DNA of 20,718 nt from a virus: positions 1 through 20,718 of the IMG/VR virus record IMGVR_UViG_3300028364_000181. One strand, written 5' to 3'. This document shows, piece by piece, positions 4,312 through 15,250 of the stretch. The notes below the pieces were generated by a model. That model did no database searches. It was not told the origin of the DNA and was given only the letters and a program-made list of their open reading frames with translations. Position numbers and translations under genes: made by a program. The number at the start of each line of letters is the position of its first letter. Positions within the stretch are counted from its first letter, which is position 1.

Positions 4312-6311
4312 TGTATAAAAAAGTATTCAAAAGTCTAAAGAAATCTCAAGAAGATAAGATAAATGAACATCTTGGTAAACTAAAAATTGGTTACGAATAT
4401 GATCGTGGAGACATAGATACAAAAACACCTGAAGGTAAGGAGAAGGTTAAGGGTAAGTTAACAACAAAAAACCTTAATAGCTCTTTATACTCCGTTCCTT
4501 CAGAGAAAAATGTAAAAGGTATACCTAAAAAAACCGGACACCAAGCTGGAACTATCAATGTATTTGGTGCTCACTATCCAGTTGTTAAGATCATGAACGA
4601 CAATACTTTGTTATTGCACACTTCTGACTATGGAGATAGTGAACAAGGAATGCAGTCTAAGACAAGACAGTTGGTAGATAAGATACAGAAAGAAGTTCCA
4701 GAACATTTTCCAGATATGAAAATCGTTAAAATAAACCATCCTGACTATACCCACTCTTCTAGAATAATGAGAGAAAATAATCACGAAAAAGTAAGTCAAT
4801 ACCTACAAGATGCTTCTCAAAATCACCCAGATGAAGAGTATAGACAACACGCAGCTGAATCTCATTTACACCTAAACCCTGTAAAAAAAGGCTTCAATAC
4901 AAAACCAATCCACCAGAAAAGGATTGAAAATGAAGGTTGGGATGGTAAGAAAAATATAGAAAATAGAACAGATAGGATACATCAGTATTTACAAAAAATA
5001 GGTTTAAGTGCCGATTTGGGGGATAATGACGAAAACACAAGAGCAATGGGTGCTAGAGAACCTAATGCTTTAGGTGTTAATCCAAAAGGAGACCCAACAG
5101 ATCAGCAGTTAATTCATGAAGCTGGTCATGCTGTTTTGACTCCAGAAAATGCTAAATTAGAAGATTATCAAGAAATGATAGGCAGTCCAGGTCTTGATGC
5201 AAAAGTAAAAGCTTCCCAACAAAGAGAGACGATGCAAGATCATCATGGTGGAGGTATGCCAGAACAAACAGCTCAACACGCTGAAGCCGCAATAGCTAGA
5301 AGATCGGGTGTAAATCCTTTTAGAGTTCCTAAGAGGAGTGCTCGTTCAGACACTGCCGAAGAAGGTGCTAGAAGACACGCCAAAAAACAAATAAATATGT
5401 TGGATGAAGGTATACATAGGTTTAACCCTCAAACTGGTAGGAAAGAAATACAGGGTACGGTTAATGCTCATATAAATGCTAAGAGTAAGGGTTTTACAGC
5501 GGAAGCTGAGAAAATAAGTGGTAAACTAAAAGAAAAATACAAAGAAAAAAATAAACTAAAAGAGCAAAATCCTGACGCTCATGATTTCTTGTTTGGAAAA
5601 TCAGAAGACGCTAGTAGGCAGGGTCAGGAAGGCTTAAAACCTCAAGCTACCCAACAAAAAGATCCTGTAATAGAACTCAATCACGATCACGGCAAAGAAG
5701 TTGCGGATGCTTATCACAGTATGAAGCACGACCCTTCCCATCCAGAAGTTAAAGAGGCTTACGGTGCTTTAGTTGGTGAAACAAAAAAGCAATTTGAAGA
5801 TATATCTAATAGTGGTATAAAAATATCTAGAATTAAACATGGTCAAGAAAACCCATATAAAAACTCAAAAGAACTTCATCACGATATAAAAAATAACAAT
5901 CACATGTGGTTTTTCCCTACAAAAGACGGTTTCGGCAGCGATGCAGAAAAAGACTTTTCAGATCACCCAATGTTACAAGGCACTGGAGTTCACCATGACG
6001 GTGAAGAGTTACTAGCTAACGATATGTTTAGGATAGTCCATGACATTAACGGTCACCATCACGGTGGTGAAACTGGATTTGGACCTAAGGGTGAACACCA
6101 AGCCTACAACGCTCATAAAAAGATGTATTCTCCGCTGGCTAACAAAGCACTAGCTACAGAAACACTGGGTCAAAATAGCTGGGTTAATTTTGGACCACAC
6201 GGTGAACATAATAGGTCTAAACCTCATGAGACTAAGTATGCAGATCAAAAAGCTGGCTTAATGCCAGATCATATAGTAAACGGTAATTGGCACACAAAAG
6301 AAACAAAATAA
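4311..6311 (+). CDS. Polyvalent-type phage protein (666 aa) with HEAGH zincin-like motif and VHDxxGH/GQNSWVNFG domain
   Basis: The start ATG shares one base with the upstream TAA. Three parts can be seen. Residues about 40-190 hold a mixed beta domain of unknown type. Residues about 230-370 hold LIHEAGHAVL with H269, E270 and H273, the HExxH zinc-metallopeptidase signature, so a zincin-like domain is likely; the third ligand is not obvious, though an AEAA segment about 45 residues on could supply a glutamate. Residues about 455-660 form a second domain with VHDINGHHHGGE (H577, D578, H582), GEHQAYNAH (E595, H602) and ATETLGQNSWVNFG (E617 to G628), then KAGLMPD. I recognise this His/Asp/Glu-rich set as a recurring domain of phage polyvalent proteins, probably a metal-dependent hydrolase, but the reaction is unknown to me. 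It follows two proteins of similar composition and is the last of the cassette. Confidence 0.78.
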   Translation: MYKKVFKSLKKSQEDKINEHLGKLKIGYEYDRGDIDTKTPEGKEKVKGKLTTKNLNSSLYSVPSEKNVKGIPKKTGHQAGTINVFGAHYPVVKIMNDNTLLLHTSDYGDSEQGMQSKTRQLVDKIQKEVPEHFPDMKIVKINHPDYTHSSRIMRENNHEKVSQYLQDASQNHPDEEYRQHAAESHLHLNPVKKGFNTKPIHQKRIENEGWDGKKNIENRTDRIHQYLQKIGLSADLGDNDENTRAMGAREPNALGVNPKGDPTDQQLIHEAGHAVLTPENAKLEDYQEMIGSPGLDAKVKASQQRETMQDHHGGGMPEQTAQHAEAAIARRSGVNPFRVPKRSARSDTAEEGARRHAKKQINMLDEGIHRFNPQTGRKEIQGTVNAHINAKSKGFTAEAEKISGKLKEKYKEKNKLKEQNPDAHDFLFGKSEDASRQGQEGLKPQATQQKDPVIELNHDHGKEVADAYHSMKHDPSHPEVKEAYGALVGETKKQFEDISNSGIKISRIKHGQENPYKNSKELHHDIKNNNHMWFFPTKDGFGSDAEKDFSDHPMLQGTGVHHDGEELLANDMFRIVHDINGHHHGGETGFGPKGEHQAYNAHKKMYSPLANKALATETLGQNSWVNFGPHGEHNRSKPHETKYADQKAGLMPDHIVNGNWHTKETK

Positions 6312-6335
6312 TGTTCCAAAAATCTCATAAAATAT

Positions 6336-6355
6336 GGTATATATAGGTATATAAA
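6336..6355 (+). repeat. Tandem 10-bp near-repeat in intergenic gap
   Basis: GGTATATATA is followed directly by GGTATATAAA in the 74-base gap between the polyvalent cassette and the next gene. The AT-rich repeat could be part of a promoter or a protein-binding site, but I see no convincing -35 box at the right distance. Confidence 0.4.
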
Positions 6356-6385
6356 CTACTGAAAATACAAGTAAAAGGCTATAAA

Positions 6386-8613: not shown

Positions 8614-9572
8614 TGGATAAAAATATTACTGTATTGAAAAAACTTCTTGGTGAAGATATCTTTGATGAAATGAAAAAATCAGAGATATATAAGCCAGAAA
8701 CAAGAACGGCAGTTGATCTTGATGAGATCAAGATTGCCCTTGAAGTTGTTCCAAAAGCTGTAATGGCTTTTTTAATACAAAATTTAAAACACCTAAAAGC
8801 AGGGGATAATTTAGATCTTCCCTTGTATTTTGTAGAGGGTTACGATCAAGTGCCTAATCTACATGTTAACAAAATATCCAGAGATGTTTATTCTGGAGAT
8901 ATTACTTGTTTAGGGAAGAGAATAACTGACTTTAAATATAGAACCTTACCAGGCATAGGTCTAATAGTTCTATCTACATTTGAACTGTATGAAGTTGAAG
9001 AGTCTAAAAAAGATAACAACAGTAGTTGTGAAAGTGGTGAAGACCTATCTAGAATGATCGATGAAAGAATTAGGTTGAATTCTCTTATTAGAAATGTTTG
9101 TGAAGAAAAAATGAGCGAAAGAGAAGCAATACAGAATATGATTAATCATAGAATTTCTGAAAAGTTTTCTGAAGAAGAGATGGACGAAGATGAATGTGAA
9201 GATGAATGTGAAGATGAGTTCCAGCCTCTTGAAGAAAGCGAAGATATTGAAATTTTAGATGAATCTGGAGAAAACATAATGGATTCGAGTTCTAAAAAAA
9301 GTAAGTTAAGAGAGTTCCTAGATACAAGGGAGCACAAAAGAAAAGAAAAAGTAGAGCTAGAAAAGAACGAAAATATATCGTGTCCAGACTGTGCGAGTAG
9401 TCTATACAAAGGTGAGGATCATTTTAAACTTTGCATTTGTTTTGGTGATAATTACAACAAAGAAATTAAATTTACTAAGAGTGAAGACGGAAGAGTTGTT
9501 TTTAAGTTTCCTAAGAAATTTGACACAGACAACGTAGAGCTACTTTTAGAAGCAATAAAGTCAAATAAATAG
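8613..9572 (+). CDS. Hypothetical protein (319 aa) with acidic linker and C-terminal Cys cluster
   Basis: The ATG at 8613 shares a base with the upstream TAA. Residues 1-135 form a globular domain with a hydrophobic core (VPKAVMAFLIQNLKHL, LPGIGLIVLSTFELYEV) that I do not recognise. Residues 140-215 are charged and acidic, with an ECEDECEDE repeat. Around residue 228 a basic segment (SKLREFLDTREHKRKEK) precedes a small C-terminal domain with C257, C260, C274 and C276 (CxxC, 13 residues, CxC). H270 nearby suggests a possible zinc-ribbon-like fold. The last 40 residues are beta-strand then helix. A 9-base gap follows. The function is unknown; a zinc-binding C-terminus is plausible but unproven. 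Confidence 0.62.
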   Translation: MDKNITVLKKLLGEDIFDEMKKSEIYKPETRTAVDLDEIKIALEVVPKAVMAFLIQNLKHLKAGDNLDLPLYFVEGYDQVPNLHVNKISRDVYSGDITCLGKRITDFKYRTLPGIGLIVLSTFELYEVEESKKDNNSSCESGEDLSRMIDERIRLNSLIRNVCEEKMSEREAIQNMINHRISEKFSEEEMDEDECEDECEDEFQPLEESEDIEILDESGENIMDSSSKKSKLREFLDTREHKRKEKVELEKNENISCPDCASSLYKGEDHFKLCICFGDNYNKEIKFTKSEDGRVVFKFPKKFDTDNVELLLEAIKSNK

Positions 9573-9581
9573 GAGTATATA

Positions 9582-11303
9582 GTGGAATTTAAGTATTTAG
9601 CGATAAATGGTGATAATGTAGGTGACGGTATTGGAAATGCAATCGCTACAGACAACCATGAAGAACTTACAAAAATTACTGGTGGTCTTAACGAAGCTCA
9701 CGGTGGAATTGACGAATGGGTTGAGTCTATTGGTGGAGAGATCCTTACATCTTCTGGTGATGAGGGTATTTACAAAGTTCCATCTCAAGCTATGGAAAGT
9801 GCTAATTTAGATGAAATTAGACAGAGATACTCTGAAAGTGCTGGAACAACTATTACCATAGGTGTCGGTGCAAGTATGTCTGAAGCCTCTAAAGCTCTTA
9901 TATACGGTAAAATGAACGAAAAAGACCAAGTAGTGGAGTATGACCCTAGTATAGATGACTTTATAGCTTCTCATGGTGAAGACGAGTCTGAGGTTGGTAT
10001 CGAACCTGAATTACCAGAAGAAGGTATGGAAGAAGAAGGTCAATTTCCTGAAGAAGGTATGGAATCTGAATTGCCTGAAGAGGGTATGGAAGAGGAGCTG
10101 ATGCCAGAAGGTCAGATGCCCGAAGAGGGTATGGAAGATCCGTCTATGGAAGAAATGCATGAAGAAGGTATGGAAGGTAGTTTTGACGAAACTTTAATGC
10201 AAGAGGGAGAAGAGTCTCAAGAAGAGCTATCTAAAAACCCTGAAGAAAAAATAAGTGAAGCTGTTGGTCAAGATTTAGATGGTGACGGTGATTTGGATAT
10301 TATGCAAGCTCAAGATGATCCTCTAAATAACGCAGAGGGTGAAGAAGAAATGAGAGAAGAGCCTCAAGGCAATATGGATAATTTTGGTGAAGAAATGCCT
10401 GAAGAAGGTGAGGATAGACAGGGTGCTATTGGTGACATGATTCATGCAAATATGGAAGGTGAAGAGCAAGGTGAAGATCCTGAAGGTCTTAAAAATGAAA
10501 TTATGCAAGCTCTTATGATATTTAAAGAAAATAAAGATATGCTAGAAGCAAGTCAACAACAAAATCCAGAACTTTACAGTGGAATTATGTCTATGCTTAG
10601 TTCTATGATTGAAATGGCTAAACAGCTAAATATGAATCCTGTAGGGGATATGGCTAACGGTGAAGTTCAAGGTGAACTACCTCAAAGTGAAGGAATGCAA
10701 GAAGAAATGCCTGAAGAAGGTATGGAAGGTATGGAAGAGGAACTTGAAGAAGAAGTAGATCCTGATGTTATTGATGAGGGTGAACTTGCTGAGGATGATG
10801 AAGAGCAAAAAGATTTTAAGAATCAATTCAAGAAAAATGAAATAGATACACTATATAAAAACTTGTTTAAAAGTATTTCAAAAGTAAAGAATGCTGTAAA
10901 GAGCTTGAACAAAACTAGTAAGTTTGACTCAAAACTTTCTGCGGAAGGTAAGAAGGGTAGAAGAAAACTTGGCGGTAAAATGGCAAAGCCTAAATTTGGC
11001 GAGAGTGGTGTACATAGACCTACTTCAACTTCTGGAGAGTCAAATATGGGCTACACTGCTAGGCAGGGAACTAAAATGATGAGAGACACTGACAATATAA
11101 AAACAAAAGTAAAGGATGCACTGCTACCTCAGCACCATCCTGAAAAAAGCCTTCGTGCAACTGGAAAAAGAAAATTAGATGGAGAATATGGTGCAAAAGC
11201 ATCTTCTAAAAGAACATTGGGAGAGTCTAAAAAAATTAAACCTGACTTACCTAAGGGTGAAAAAGACGTTGTTAAAGTAAAGAAGGGTTCTGGAAAAAAG
11301 TAA
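9582..11303 (+). CDS. Palm-domain (GGDEF/mCpol-like) protein with acidic PEEGM repeats, 573 aa zero-frame product
   Basis: The start is GTG at 9582 after AGGAG at 9571-9575. Residues 3-120 closely follow the layout of nucleotide-cyclase palm domains. There is a first strand AINGDNVGDGIG (N9, D11), a hairpin GGEILTSSGDEG (D60, E61 at the GGDEF position) and a strand TITIGVG (90-96). These are followed by the EASKAL...GK...KDQVVEY helix and strand, comparable to 'EAL..AD.ALY.AK..GRN.V'. The usual first metal-binding Asp is Asn here (N9), so activity is uncertain. Residues 145-200 are acidic repeats around PEEGM. An EF-hand-like DLDGDGDLDI starts at D231. A helical, Met-rich segment spans about 300-350. 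From residue 425 the protein becomes strongly basic. It sits among structural genes and ends at a predicted frameshift site. Palm homology is my inference from motifs. Confidence 0.7.
   Translation: MEFKYLAINGDNVGDGIGNAIATDNHEELTKITGGLNEAHGGIDEWVESIGGEILTSSGDEGIYKVPSQAMESANLDEIRQRYSESAGTTITIGVGASMSEASKALIYGKMNEKDQVVEYDPSIDDFIASHGEDESEVGIEPELPEEGMEEEGQFPEEGMESELPEEGMEEELMPEGQMPEEGMEDPSMEEMHEEGMEGSFDETLMQEGEESQEELSKNPEEKISEAVGQDLDGDGDLDIMQAQDDPLNNAEGEEEMREEPQGNMDNFGEEMPEEGEDRQGAIGDMIHANMEGEEQGEDPEGLKNEIMQALMIFKENKDMLEASQQQNPELYSGIMSMLSSMIEMAKQLNMNPVGDMANGEVQGELPQSEGMQEEMPEEGMEGMEEELEEEVDPDVIDEGELAEDDEEQKDFKNQFKKNEIDTLYKNLFKSISKVKNAVKSLNKTSKFDSKLSAEGKKGRRKLGGKMAKPKFGESGVHRPTSTSGESNMGYTARQGTKMMRDTDNIKTKVKDALLPQHHPEKSLRATGKRKLDGEYGAKASSKRTLGESKKIKPDLPKGEKDVVKVKKGSGKK
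10014..10172 (+). repeat. Acidic PEEGM/HEEGM coding repeats
   Basis: Five PEEGM or HEEGM units occur in residues 145-197 of the protein above, starting at residues 145, 156, 165, 180 and 193. They are encoded by close variants of CCTGAAGAAGGTATGGAA. Another copy occurs near 10709. The spacing is irregular, as expected from repeated slippage and drift in a disordered linker. Confidence 0.7.
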
Positions 11304-11344
11304 TTAAGGAAGACCTTGAGAAGGGAACTATTCAAGGTCTTCCT
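11281..11344 (+). promoter_or_regulatory. Programmed -1 ribosomal frameshift signal
   Basis: The zero frame ends GGA AAA AAG TAA, which contains the slippery heptamer A AAA AAG at 11294-11300, the same as in E. coli dnaX. A 6-base spacer (TAATTA) is followed by a perfect 12-bp stem, AGGAAGACCTTG (11307-11318) with CAAGGTCTTCCT (11333-11344), enclosing a 14-base loop. An SD-like AGAAGGG (11281-11287) lies 6 bases upstream of the heptamer, as expected for a stimulatory internal Shine-Dalgarno. The -1 frame is open through 11629 and has no ATG, GTG or TTG start before its best-looking block. The stem is not followed by a T-run, so it is not a terminator. The geometry strongly supports -1 frameshifting. 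Confidence 0.85.
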
Positions 11345-11629
11345 GATAAATCTACTAAACACATATCGAGAAAAAGACTACCAGTTGGTGCTGTAAAGGG
11401 CGGTAAGGTTAAGGTCAAAGACGGTGACAGTGGAAATGTTTCTTGGAGATCTGGTAGATCAGGTATGTCAAGAGACTGGGATGGTGACGCTATTTCAACA
11501 AACTACAATAGAAAAGACATGAAGGCTAAAGTAACGCATAGGGTGCATGAGGGTAGTAAGAAAAGCCAAAAACCAACTCACGATGTACATATGGGTAAGG
11601 AAGACGGTAGGGAAAGAGCTGATGAGTGA
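11300..11629 (+). CDS. -1 frame extension (109 aa) of the palm-domain protein, reached by frameshifting
   Basis: After the slip at A AAA AAG, translation continues at GTA 11300 and stops at TGA 11627-11629, adding 109 residues and giving a 682-residue fusion. The extension contains RKRLPVGAVKGGKVKVKDGD and then GNVSWRSGRSGMSRDWDGD, a compact Gly/Val/Lys pattern that looks like a small beta-barrel domain and is clearly protein-like. A polar, His-rich end follows. No usable start codon precedes this block; the first in-frame ATG falls after it, in SGMSRDWDGD. The next gene's ATG (11622) overlaps this stop, so ribosomes finishing the long form could couple into it. The alternative is a real or assembly-level frameshift mutation, but the stem-loop argues against that. 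The role may be virion attachment, by analogy with other frameshifted phage structural proteins. Confidence 0.78.
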   Translation, partial: VIKEDLEKGTIQGLPDKSTKHISRKRLPVGAVKGGKVKVKDGDSGNVSWRSGRSGMSRDWDGDAISTNYNRKDMKAKVTHRVHEGSKKSQKPTHDVHMGKEDGRERADE

Positions 11630-12380
11630 TTTGAGGTTTGACTTAGATATAAGCTCTATTGCTGAAAGTTTTGGTGAAAAGAAAAAAGAACTAGAAAAAG
11701 ACTTGCAAAAATCAGTTGGTAATTTAGCTACAATGACACACGCTAAAACAATGGAATTAGCCACTTCTGAACTAGGTAGTCTATCTAAACAATATAAGGA
11801 TGGTTTGTCTTTTGAACAGGTGGATAAAAACCTTTGGGTAGTTTCACTTGATGAAAAGCTTCTTTGGATTGAAGAGGGTAGAAAAAGTGGCTTTATGGAA
11901 GAGTTACTAAATGGAAAGTCTGGAAAAGTGGGTAAGGATGGTACTAAATATGCGATCATACCTTTTGAACATTCCAAAAACCCTACAGAACAGTCAAGTA
12001 AGGCACAAGATCTAAGTAGTCAAATACAAGATGAGCTTAAGTCTAGAAATGTTCCCTATAAGAAAATAGAAAATAACCAAGATGGAAGTCCTAAACTTGG
12101 TTTGTTACATAAGTTTGATTTCGATTCACCTAAACTAAAGGACTCTCACAAAGACAGTCCTTTAAAGGGTGTAGCTATATACCAAAGGATGAATGTTAAA
12201 ACTGGAGATGTCCAGCGTGACGTTATGACTTTTAGAATAATAACAGAAAAACACAAAGAAGAGGGTAAGTGGGTTCACCCAGGCAGGGAAGGTGACAAGC
12301 TGATGGACAAAGCCTTTGAGTGGGCTATGAACGAGTGGGATAGTAAGATATTACCAGAGGTTTTGGCAAAACATGGATAA
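11622..12380 (+). CDS. Putative neck / tail-completion protein (252 aa, HK97 gp10-like character)
   Basis: I place the start at ATG 11622 (MSDLRFDLDISS), which follows AGGG at 11609-11612 and overlaps the -1 frame stop (ATGAGTGA). An in-frame ATG at 11547 lies inside the frameshift extension and is not favoured. The N-terminal 60 residues form a long amphipathic helix (ESFGEKKKELEKDLQKSVG ...), followed by a small-residue helix. Then come NLWVVSLDEKLLWIEEGRKSG and KYAIIPF. The order 'helix, strand, W.EEG, ...IPF' recalls HK97 gp10-type head-tail joining proteins, although the match is by general shape. The C-terminus is helical (DKAFEWAMNEWDSKIL). Position ahead of the tail genes fits a connector role. 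Function is moderately supported, the gene strongly. Confidence 0.62.
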   Translation: MSDLRFDLDISSIAESFGEKKKELEKDLQKSVGNLATMTHAKTMELATSELGSLSKQYKDGLSFEQVDKNLWVVSLDEKLLWIEEGRKSGFMEELLNGKSGKVGKDGTKYAIIPFEHSKNPTEQSSKAQDLSSQIQDELKSRNVPYKKIENNQDGSPKLGLLHKFDFDSPKLKDSHKDSPLKGVAIYQRMNVKTGDVQRDVMTFRIITEKHKEEGKWVHPGREGDKLMDKAFEWAMNEWDSKILPEVLAKHG

Positions 12381-12546: not shown

Positions 12547-13107
12547 ATGAAGATATATAAAATAACAAACAAGCTTGATGGAAAAGTGTATATAGGAAAG
12601 TGCGAAGGTAGTTTAGAAAAAAGGTTTCAGAGACACTGTAGACCTTCCAGTGGTTGTGTAAAGATCAAAAACGCCATTAAGAAACACGGTAAAGAAAATT
12701 TCTCAATAGAAGAAATAGATAGTTGCGAAAACGCTAAAGATCTTAATAAAAGAGAAATATATTGGATAAGTCAATATAAATCTGTAGAGAGTGGTTATAA
12801 TTTAACATATGGTGGAGAAGGTGGTAGTCCATCTAAAGAAACAAGAGAGAAGATAAGAAAACACAGAACTGGAAAGAAGATTAGTAAAAAAGTTAGAGAT
12901 AAGATGTCTATTGATAGAACTGGTCACAAAAACTACAGATCTAAAAAAACTTTAGTAATATACCCAGATGGGTCTCAGAAGGTTTTTAAGTGTCTTAAAT
13001 ACGCTTCAGAAAGCCTCGATATAAGCTACTCTTGTGCTAGGGCATTGGCTCAAGGACATAACAAAAAGAGTAGAGATGGTTATAAAATTAAATATTTGGA
13101 GGCGTAA
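12547..13107 (+). CDS. GIY-YIG homing endonuclease with NUMOD motifs (SegA-like)
   Basis: A free-standing homing endonuclease of 186 residues. The GIY-YIG nuclease core is clear: KIYKITN (Y4), KVYIGK (Y15, I16, G17), the catalytic Arg in EKRFQRH (R26) and the metal-binding Glu in KREIYWI (E70). It is followed by NUMOD3-type DNA-binding repeats (SKETREKIRKHRTGKK, then KKVRDKMSIDRTGHK). The C-terminal unit is NUMOD1-like (VFKCLKYASESLDISYSCA). Such enzymes cut a target site in related phages and spread their own gene by repair. GGAGGG at 12536-12541 gives a strong start. Its stop overlaps the next gene's ATG, and that gene's Shine-Dalgarno lies inside this gene's end, so it is neatly inserted in the structural operon without breaking neighbours. 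Confidence 0.93.
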   Translation: MKIYKITNKLDGKVYIGKCEGSLEKRFQRHCRPSSGCVKIKNAIKKHGKENFSIEEIDSCENAKDLNKREIYWISQYKSVESGYNLTYGGEGGSPSKETREKIRKHRTGKKISKKVRDKMSIDRTGHKNYRSKKTLVIYPDGSQKVFKCLKYASESLDISYSCARALAQGHNKKSRDGYKIKYLEA

Positions 13108-14632: not shown

Positions 14633-15250
14633 ATGAAAGATAACAAAGAGAAAACTTACACAGCACAAGAAGTAGCTACGGCTATTATTGAAAAATGTCG
14701 TGGTTTATATAAAAACAGTGACTTAGCTAAATCCAATACTGCTCACGAGTTAGAAGTAGGTTCTGAACCTCATAATGAAGATTCTGAAGCCCCAGAACAT
14801 TTACAGGCTGGAGAGGTTTGTAAGCCTGAAGCTGGTGATGGTAAGAAGAAAAAGAAGGGTGATGGATCTGAAGAAGGATCTGAAGAAGGATCTGAAGAAG
14901 GATCTGAAGAGGGTACGGAAAAAATCGACATACCTGCAGATGAAGTTGATGGGGATTATGGTTCTAAAGACATGGCAGAAGGACAGCCTGATCACGAAAA
15001 AGATATGGGTGAAGAGGAAGAGTTTATTCATGACGCAAAAGAAAATAGGGATGATGAAGCTGACGATGACAACGTAGAAGCTGATGAAGAAGATTCTGAC
15101 GAAGAAGGTTCTGACGAAAAAGAAAAAGAACCCAAGAAGGACGATAAGAAAAAAGAGCCTTTTAAGAAGATGGAAAAGTCCGAAGATATGGGTACTAACA
15201 AGTTAAAGAATTTTATTAACAAAACAAGATCTAAAAGATCAAACAAATAG
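14633..15250 (+). CDS. Highly acidic low-complexity protein (205 aa)
   Basis: The ATG at 14633 follows TTATAAGG. The N-terminal 30 residues form a plausible amphipathic helix (YTAQEVATAIIEKCRGLYK). Residues about 75-175 are almost entirely Glu, Asp, Gly, Ser and Lys, including four perfect SEEG units and runs such as EEDSDEEGSDEKEKEP. The end is basic (NKLKNFINKTRSKRSNK). The bipolar charge pattern, acidic core with basic tail, is typical of disordered phage scaffolding or assembly chaperone proteins, but no family is recognised. It lies with two other small charged genes just ahead of the sheath. It ends 8 bases before the next start. Confidence 0.6.
   Translation: MKDNKEKTYTAQEVATAIIEKCRGLYKNSDLAKSNTAHELEVGSEPHNEDSEAPEHLQAGEVCKPEAGDGKKKKKGDGSEEGSEEGSEEGSEEGTEKIDIPADEVDGDYGSKDMAEGQPDHEKDMGEEEEFIHDAKENRDDEADDDNVEADEEDSDEEGSDEKEKEPKKDDKKKEPFKKMEKSEDMGTNKLKNFINKTRSKRSNK
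14864..14911 (+). repeat. 12-bp tandem repeat, four copies (SEEG coding)
   Basis: GGATCTGAAGAA is repeated four times head to tail (14864, 14876, 14888, 14900), the last copy differing only at its final base. A degenerate fifth copy (GGTACGGAA) follows. Each unit adds the residues GSEE in frame. Near-identity suggests recent slippage-type expansion, so copy number may vary between relatives. Confidence 0.92.

Follow-up and report, generated by a model that had tools for sequence, protein, structure and literature searches.

A dnaX-type −1 programmed ribosomal frameshift very likely takes place at the end of a neck-to-tail gene in a large contractile-tailed phage, although this reading rests on comparison and slippage has not been measured. 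The sequence analysed here, referred to as the window, is a 20.7-kb virus contig in IMG/VR. The position and spacing of slippery site and stem, the covariation of the stem, selection acting on the −1 frame and the occurrence of relatives with both halves fused are shown by comparison and support a programmed shift that gives a short and a long product, while frameshifting itself is inferred. The coordinates are summarized in Table 1.

Table 1. Features of the mCpol gene and its frameshift site (window coordinates)
Feature	Position	Strand	Remark
mCpol (minimal CRISPR polymerase / Cas10-like palm) domain	9582..9974	+	Asn9 at the place of KpOptS Asp6, Asp60 at that of Asp57
Zero-frame gene, short product of 573 aa	9582..11303	+	mCpol profile match PF18182, E 1.2e-11
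SD-like AGAAGGG	11281..11287	+	6 nt before the heptamer; not significant
Slippery heptamer A AAA AAG	11294..11300	+	zero-frame phase GGA AAA AAG
Zero-frame stop TAA	11301..11303	+	directly 3' of the heptamer
5' arm of the putative frameshift-stimulating stem	11307..11319	+	6 nt past the heptamer
3' arm of the stem	11332..11344	+	also codes the conserved Gln-Gly-Leu-Pro of the −1 frame
−1 frame extension, 109 codons + TGA	11300..11629	+	basic C-terminal domain LPDKSTKHI..GAVK.GKVKVKDG..WRSGRSGM; predicted long product of 682 aa
Next gene (phrog_16819), conserved neighbour	11622..12380	+	ATG overlaps the end of the −1 frame

The zero-frame protein comprises the mCpol palm (residues 1-130), an acidic low-complexity linker, a conserved helical segment and a lysine-rich end. 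Its gene follows a phrog_1004 virion protein gene and two further genes, and precedes phrog_16819, an SP10-terminator family protein gene, sheath and tube. This neck/tail order recurs in the relatives, several of which are on contigs of 124-170 kb. It is kept less strictly in Myxococcus phage Mx1, which has a genome of 169.6 kb, a contractile tail and an annotated sheath gene. Based on the gene order we infer that the mCpol protein is part of the phage particle. Identity with the tail assembly chaperone G/GT was considered and rejected, as the gene lies upstream of sheath and tube, encodes 573 aa and carries an mCpol domain.

Other parts of the module are less stable. The phrog_16819 homologue is inverted in two relatives (L004:10405-11166 and L005:2574-3350) while the orientation of its neighbours is unchanged. 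GIY-YIG-like endonuclease genes, spotted by eye and by mutual similarity without a profile search, occur at window 12547-13107, L022:8972-9556 and L008:3698-4315 and 8695-9492; their insertion points in the module vary among relatives and they are probably homing elements. The acidic linker of the mCpol protein (in L004, L005, L025, L027, L030 and L032) shares the segment IDIPADEVDGDYGS..MGEEEEFIHDAKENRDDE with a later gene at window 14633-15250, suggesting a possible exchange between paralogous linkers.

The signal and its stem

In the window, the heptamer and the stem are separated by the six-nucleotide spacer UAAUUA, within the 5-9 nt required of a dnaX-type signal. The arms 11307-11318 and 11333-11344 are perfectly complementary, and 13 Watson-Crick pairs form when 11319/11332 is added. 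The stem folds at -24.7 kcal/mol compared to a mean of -9.4 kcal/mol for dinucleotide shuffles (z -6.35; 0/200 as stable), and none of 237 other positions in the mCpol gene folds as well. The SD-like element is not supported to the same extent: it ends 6 nt before the heptamer, where about 10 nt would be expected of a dnaX-type stimulator, and its anti-SD pairing is equalled or beaten at 36% of positions in the purine-rich window gene, and across 11 relatives there is only a weak excess, with 683 of 20,000 random draws as good. A reading of the hairpin as a terminator was rejected, as there is no U tract and no terminator-like site at the junction. An Rfam search returned nothing above threshold and a single chance-level match to ylbH.

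These results bear on a first-pass annotation of the window, made from the sequence alone, that had proposed a three-part dnaX-type signal in a palm-domain gene distinct from the usual tail-chaperone pair. The claims on the gene held, as Pfam identifies mCpol and the gene precedes sheath and tube. The A AAA AAG directly before the zero-frame stop and the perfect 12-bp stem six bases further on were confirmed at their coordinates, the stem being extensible to 13 bp. The three-part signal held in part: heptamer and stem are solid, while the SD-like element is present but not significant. An open −1 frame of 109 codons that lacks an initiation codon at its start and ends overlapping the next ATG was also confirmed. 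The two isoform sizes, 573 and 573+109 = 682 residues, hold as arithmetic, their production being inferred.

Relatives were searched with the −1 protein and with mCpol alignments, yielding about 20 distinct loci, all but Mx1 given here by L numbers; they are IMG/VR records from many samples. No DNA-level similarity to sequenced phages was found. In tblastn searches of phage records the −1 frame had no match and mCpol matched only Mx1, and no relatives in bacterial genomes were confirmed. Thirteen distinct groups show the split arrangement, with the C-terminal domain in the −1 frame and the stop of the gene at the slippery site or a few codons from it. At least 11 diverged groups (15 contigs) also have the stem (window; L002/L003; L008; L022/L023/L028; L024; L011/L012; L025; L027; L032; L033=L019; L034), while two split groups (L004, L026) do not. 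The C-terminal domain falls to 27-39% identity with that of the window in the remoter relatives.

Comparison of the site in related phages, proposed earlier as a check, shows that heptamer, spacing and covarying stem are kept in the 11 stem groups. The heptamer is A AAA AAG in ten of them, within runs of A6 to A8, and C CCA AAG in the GC-richer L034, and the stem begins about 6 nt past the heptamer in all 11, L034 included. The combination is also rare by chance. When 302 ORFs of at least 100 aa from the window and its relatives were screened for an X XXY YYZ heptamer no more than 6 codons from the stop and a −1 frame open for at least 60 codons, 15 qualified, 13 of which are the mCpol gene.

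The stem stays in place and paired while the sequences of its arms change. In a helix-registered alignment 98.9% of cells are paired and seven of eight pairs change on both sides; such both-side changes occur in 27 cells compared to 8.0 in shuffles, with 0/500 shuffles matching and slid alignments likewise not near. This alignment was registered by hand, with bulges omitted in three sequences, which favours pairing. A second comparison anchored the arms by spacing and the Leu-Pro codons, independently of pairing: the 3' arms pair with their own partners at a mean of -18.1 kcal/mol, compared to -10.2 kcal/mol when arms are swapped among relatives (0/100,000 permutations). In every group the hairpin ranks within the strongest 0-3.3% of positions of its own gene, while L022 and L034, folded as single sequences, give unremarkable z-scores (-1.6 and -0.5, respectively). 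The covariation and the preference of the arms for their own partners thus provide strong comparative evidence that the hairpin is an RNA element under selection.

The −1 frame and its fused counterparts

The −1 frame ends with a TGA at 11627-11629, so that it overlaps the ATG of the next gene at 11622. Differences between relatives fall mostly at the third codon position of this frame (31, 26 and 58 at positions 1, 2 and 3 for window/L003; 14, 12 and 39 for L004/L005). Where dS could be estimated, dN is far lower (0.22 vs 1.18 for L003/L008; 0.15 vs 2.03 for L004/L005). The −1 frame is thus conserved as a protein under protein-level selection. The motif LP[DE]K..KH....GA.K.GK.KV.DG...W remains recognisable even in fused relatives. 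Structure prediction gave no confident fold for the C-terminal domain (pLDDT 66, pTM 0.31), only a beta-hairpin.

One alternative is that the −1 frame is a separate gene, whose translation begins at an internal start or resumes by re-initiation past the stop. Phage operons commonly use termination-reinitiation, and L004 has an ATG just before the SLPDK of its extension. However, no ATG, GTG or TTG precedes the conserved part in the window, L003, L027 or L032, and the earliest such codon in the −1 frame of the window, at 11465, lies within the conserved domain. Moreover, fused forms exist, and a separate gene would leave both the slippery heptamer and the hairpin past the stop unexplained. This alternative is virtually ruled out.

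The two halves lie in one open frame in L005, L030, L037 and Myxococcus phage Mx1 (L014), from which we infer that the long protein is a real product. In the mCpol tree, in which most other forks are poorly supported, the fused L005 is sister to the split L004 and the fused L030 pairs with the split L032. The frame relation of the halves has therefore switched more than once.

Fused relatives also raise the possibility of a sequence or assembly error, in which loss of an A from a run of seven would have split one continuous gene; the first-pass annotation had named continuous-frame homologues as an observation that would refute its reading. Such homologues were found in the four relatives above, yet they do not imply an error, because 13 groups from different samples share the split, in each case no more than a few codons from the stop, and 11 of these have the covarying stem. 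In addition, near-identical pairs from different samples agree on the split (L002/L003, L011/L012, L022/L023/L028). Sequence error is refuted as a general explanation and is as good as excluded.

In the proposed mechanism of ribosomal frameshifting most ribosomes would read A AAA AAG and terminate at UAA, producing the 573-residue protein. A minority would be delayed by the hairpin 6 nt downstream; both lysine tRNAs would re-pair one base back and the stop would be bypassed, the host and its lysine tRNAs being unknown. The shifted ribosomes would translate through the hairpin region to give a protein of 682 residues, whose C-terminal domain is small and basic, and would terminate in the −1 frame where it overlaps the start of the next gene. 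As in T7 10A/10B or lambda G/GT, the extension may act as a domain that is added only occasionally. In the absence of expression data, the occurrence and rate of slippage and the role of both forms as virion or assembly proteins are inferred.

Long A runs without a hairpin

L004 and L026, the split groups that have no hairpin, carry A9 at the junction, and of the fused relatives L005 has A9 and L030 A10. Runs of nine or more lack the conserved hairpin in 4/4 cases, compared to 0/11 for runs of eight or fewer, with the reservation that the groups are not independent. Nine As is the length of efficient bacterial RNA polymerase slippage and is used by Thermus thermophilus dnaX (PMC5009743). The A9/A10 junctions without a stem thus resemble that system and suggest homopolymer slippage.

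A second gene of the module, g8, shows a similar arrangement, although its window copy (14633-15250) has neither an A9 run nor an extension. Its homologues in L003 (11464-12260), L008 (11404-12092) and L005 (4822-5471) end just past an A9 run and a homologous extension continues in the −1 frame, while in L004 (12646-13263) both parts are in one frame, likewise across A9. In L003, L008, L004, L005 and L026 all A9 runs of the locus lie at mCpol-gene or g8 junctions; runs of A9 or longer without a junction role exist in L012, L030 and L032. Transcriptional slippage at the A9/A10 junctions and in g8 is a possibility inferred from these patterns, and transcript slippage has not been observed.

It could accordingly be argued that both products come throughout from slippage of RNA polymerase on the A run and not of the ribosome. 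This is favoured by the A9 runs of L004 and L026, the A9/A10 kept in fused L005 and L030, the association of long runs with a missing hairpin and the A9 junctions in five relatives, and the A8 runs of L003 and L008 could slip in transcription too. However, the run in the window has only 6 A, and polymerase slippage gives no role to a covarying hairpin at ribosomal spacing or to the C CCA AAG of L034. As an account of the window site we consider it very unlikely, and ribosomal frameshifting remains the preferred reading.

The mCpol domain and comparison with known systems

The mCpol domain matches PF18182 over residues 5-120 (45.5 bits in the window, gathering score 26.4). Relatives with the same gene order score 31-74 bits, and Mx1 with 25.0 bits lies just below the gathering score. 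The family profile also matches PDB entries 9nwn and 9mnr with E below 1e-14. KpOptS requires the catalytic residues Asp6 and Asp57 (PMC12657218). With position 6 numbered on the 9nwn sequence, Asn occupies the Asp6 position in the window and ten relatives of its branch (L003, L004, L005, L008, L012, L022, L024-L027), while the Asp57 equivalent is retained as Asp60 in the window. The window thus does not meet the requirement for both catalytic aspartates of an active mCpol nucleotide cyclase. Because Asn replaces the Asp6 equivalent, the domain is more likely to be structural or altered than to be a normal cyclase, a prediction from the alignment only.

Asp is retained at this position in L029-L032, L034 and L036, with a GGDEF motif in L029 and L031, while the catalytic motif is further eroded in Mx1 and L037. 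Phage mCpol domains with both aspartates lie in the structural gene block at L029:6001-6366, L031:6001-6372 and L034:4543-4932, and judging by the sequence motif these may be active nucleotide cyclases. The C-terminal domain was looked for in L029 and L031 and is absent. In L035 and L036 mCpol is found around 6001-6375 in another phage context, beside repeated segments and without the C-terminal domain. No 2TM-beta effector was recognised among the conserved neck/tail neighbours of the mCpol gene, for which no dedicated 2TM-beta family search was made.

A bolder joint reading would be that a Cas10-like palm was recruited into the particle of a broad large-myophage group, that the isoform ratio is set by interchangeable ribosomal (short A run and hairpin) and transcriptional (A9/A10, no hairpin) recoding, with a second module gene using the transcriptional form, and that the both-aspartate branches deliver an active nucleotide cyclase to the cell for counter-defence. 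We regard this combination as unlikely.

The frameshift signal itself is of a known kind. E. coli dnaX (tau/gamma) likewise uses A AAA AAG with a stem-loop a few nucleotides downstream. In contrast to the phage gene, frameshifting in dnaX yields the short product, the genes are unrelated, and an SD stimulator is not established in the phage gene. A longer frameshifted product is the less common orientation for dnaX-kind signals, and candidate dnaX genes with this reversed orientation have been described, e.g. in Chlorobium (PMC5009743). Thermus thermophilus dnaX, with A9 at the junction and no ribosomal stem, is matched by L004, L026 and the g8 of L003, L008 and L005, whereas the window has A6 and a hairpin, and slippage of phage transcripts has not been observed.

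In T7/T3 gene 10 (10A/10B) and other capsid or tail extensions a −1 shift late in a gene of the virion region appends a C-terminal domain, and relatives alternate between frameshift and in-frame fusion (PMC5009743), as here; the phage gene, however, is not a capsid gene as far as the gene order indicates, has no recognised Ig-like domain and carries mCpol. Lambda G/GT is likewise a phage −1 frameshift with an extended minority product, which for the mCpol gene is inferred, but the mCpol gene lies before sheath and tube rather than before the tape measure and does not encode a small chaperone. With Panoptes OptS the phage protein shares the mCpol domain (Pfam; PDB 9nwn, 9mnr). It differs in its structural gene block, its long acidic linker and, in the branch of the window, the Asn at the Asp6 equivalent, and no 2TM-beta effector gene is recognised adjoining it.

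Phage frameshift signals supported by covariation are known mainly from tail chaperones and capsid genes. The kind of signal is already known. Within the limited open-access literature searched, no description was found of the gene, of how widely it is conserved or of its apparent exchange with A9 slippage. The mCpol neck-region gene is unannotated, and gene finders will truncate it or lose its extension. The family offers ribosomal, probably transcriptional and fused routes to the same long protein, a natural series in which to study how one recoding mechanism takes the place of another. In addition, it provides a testable role for an enzyme fold that is otherwise familiar from defence against phages.
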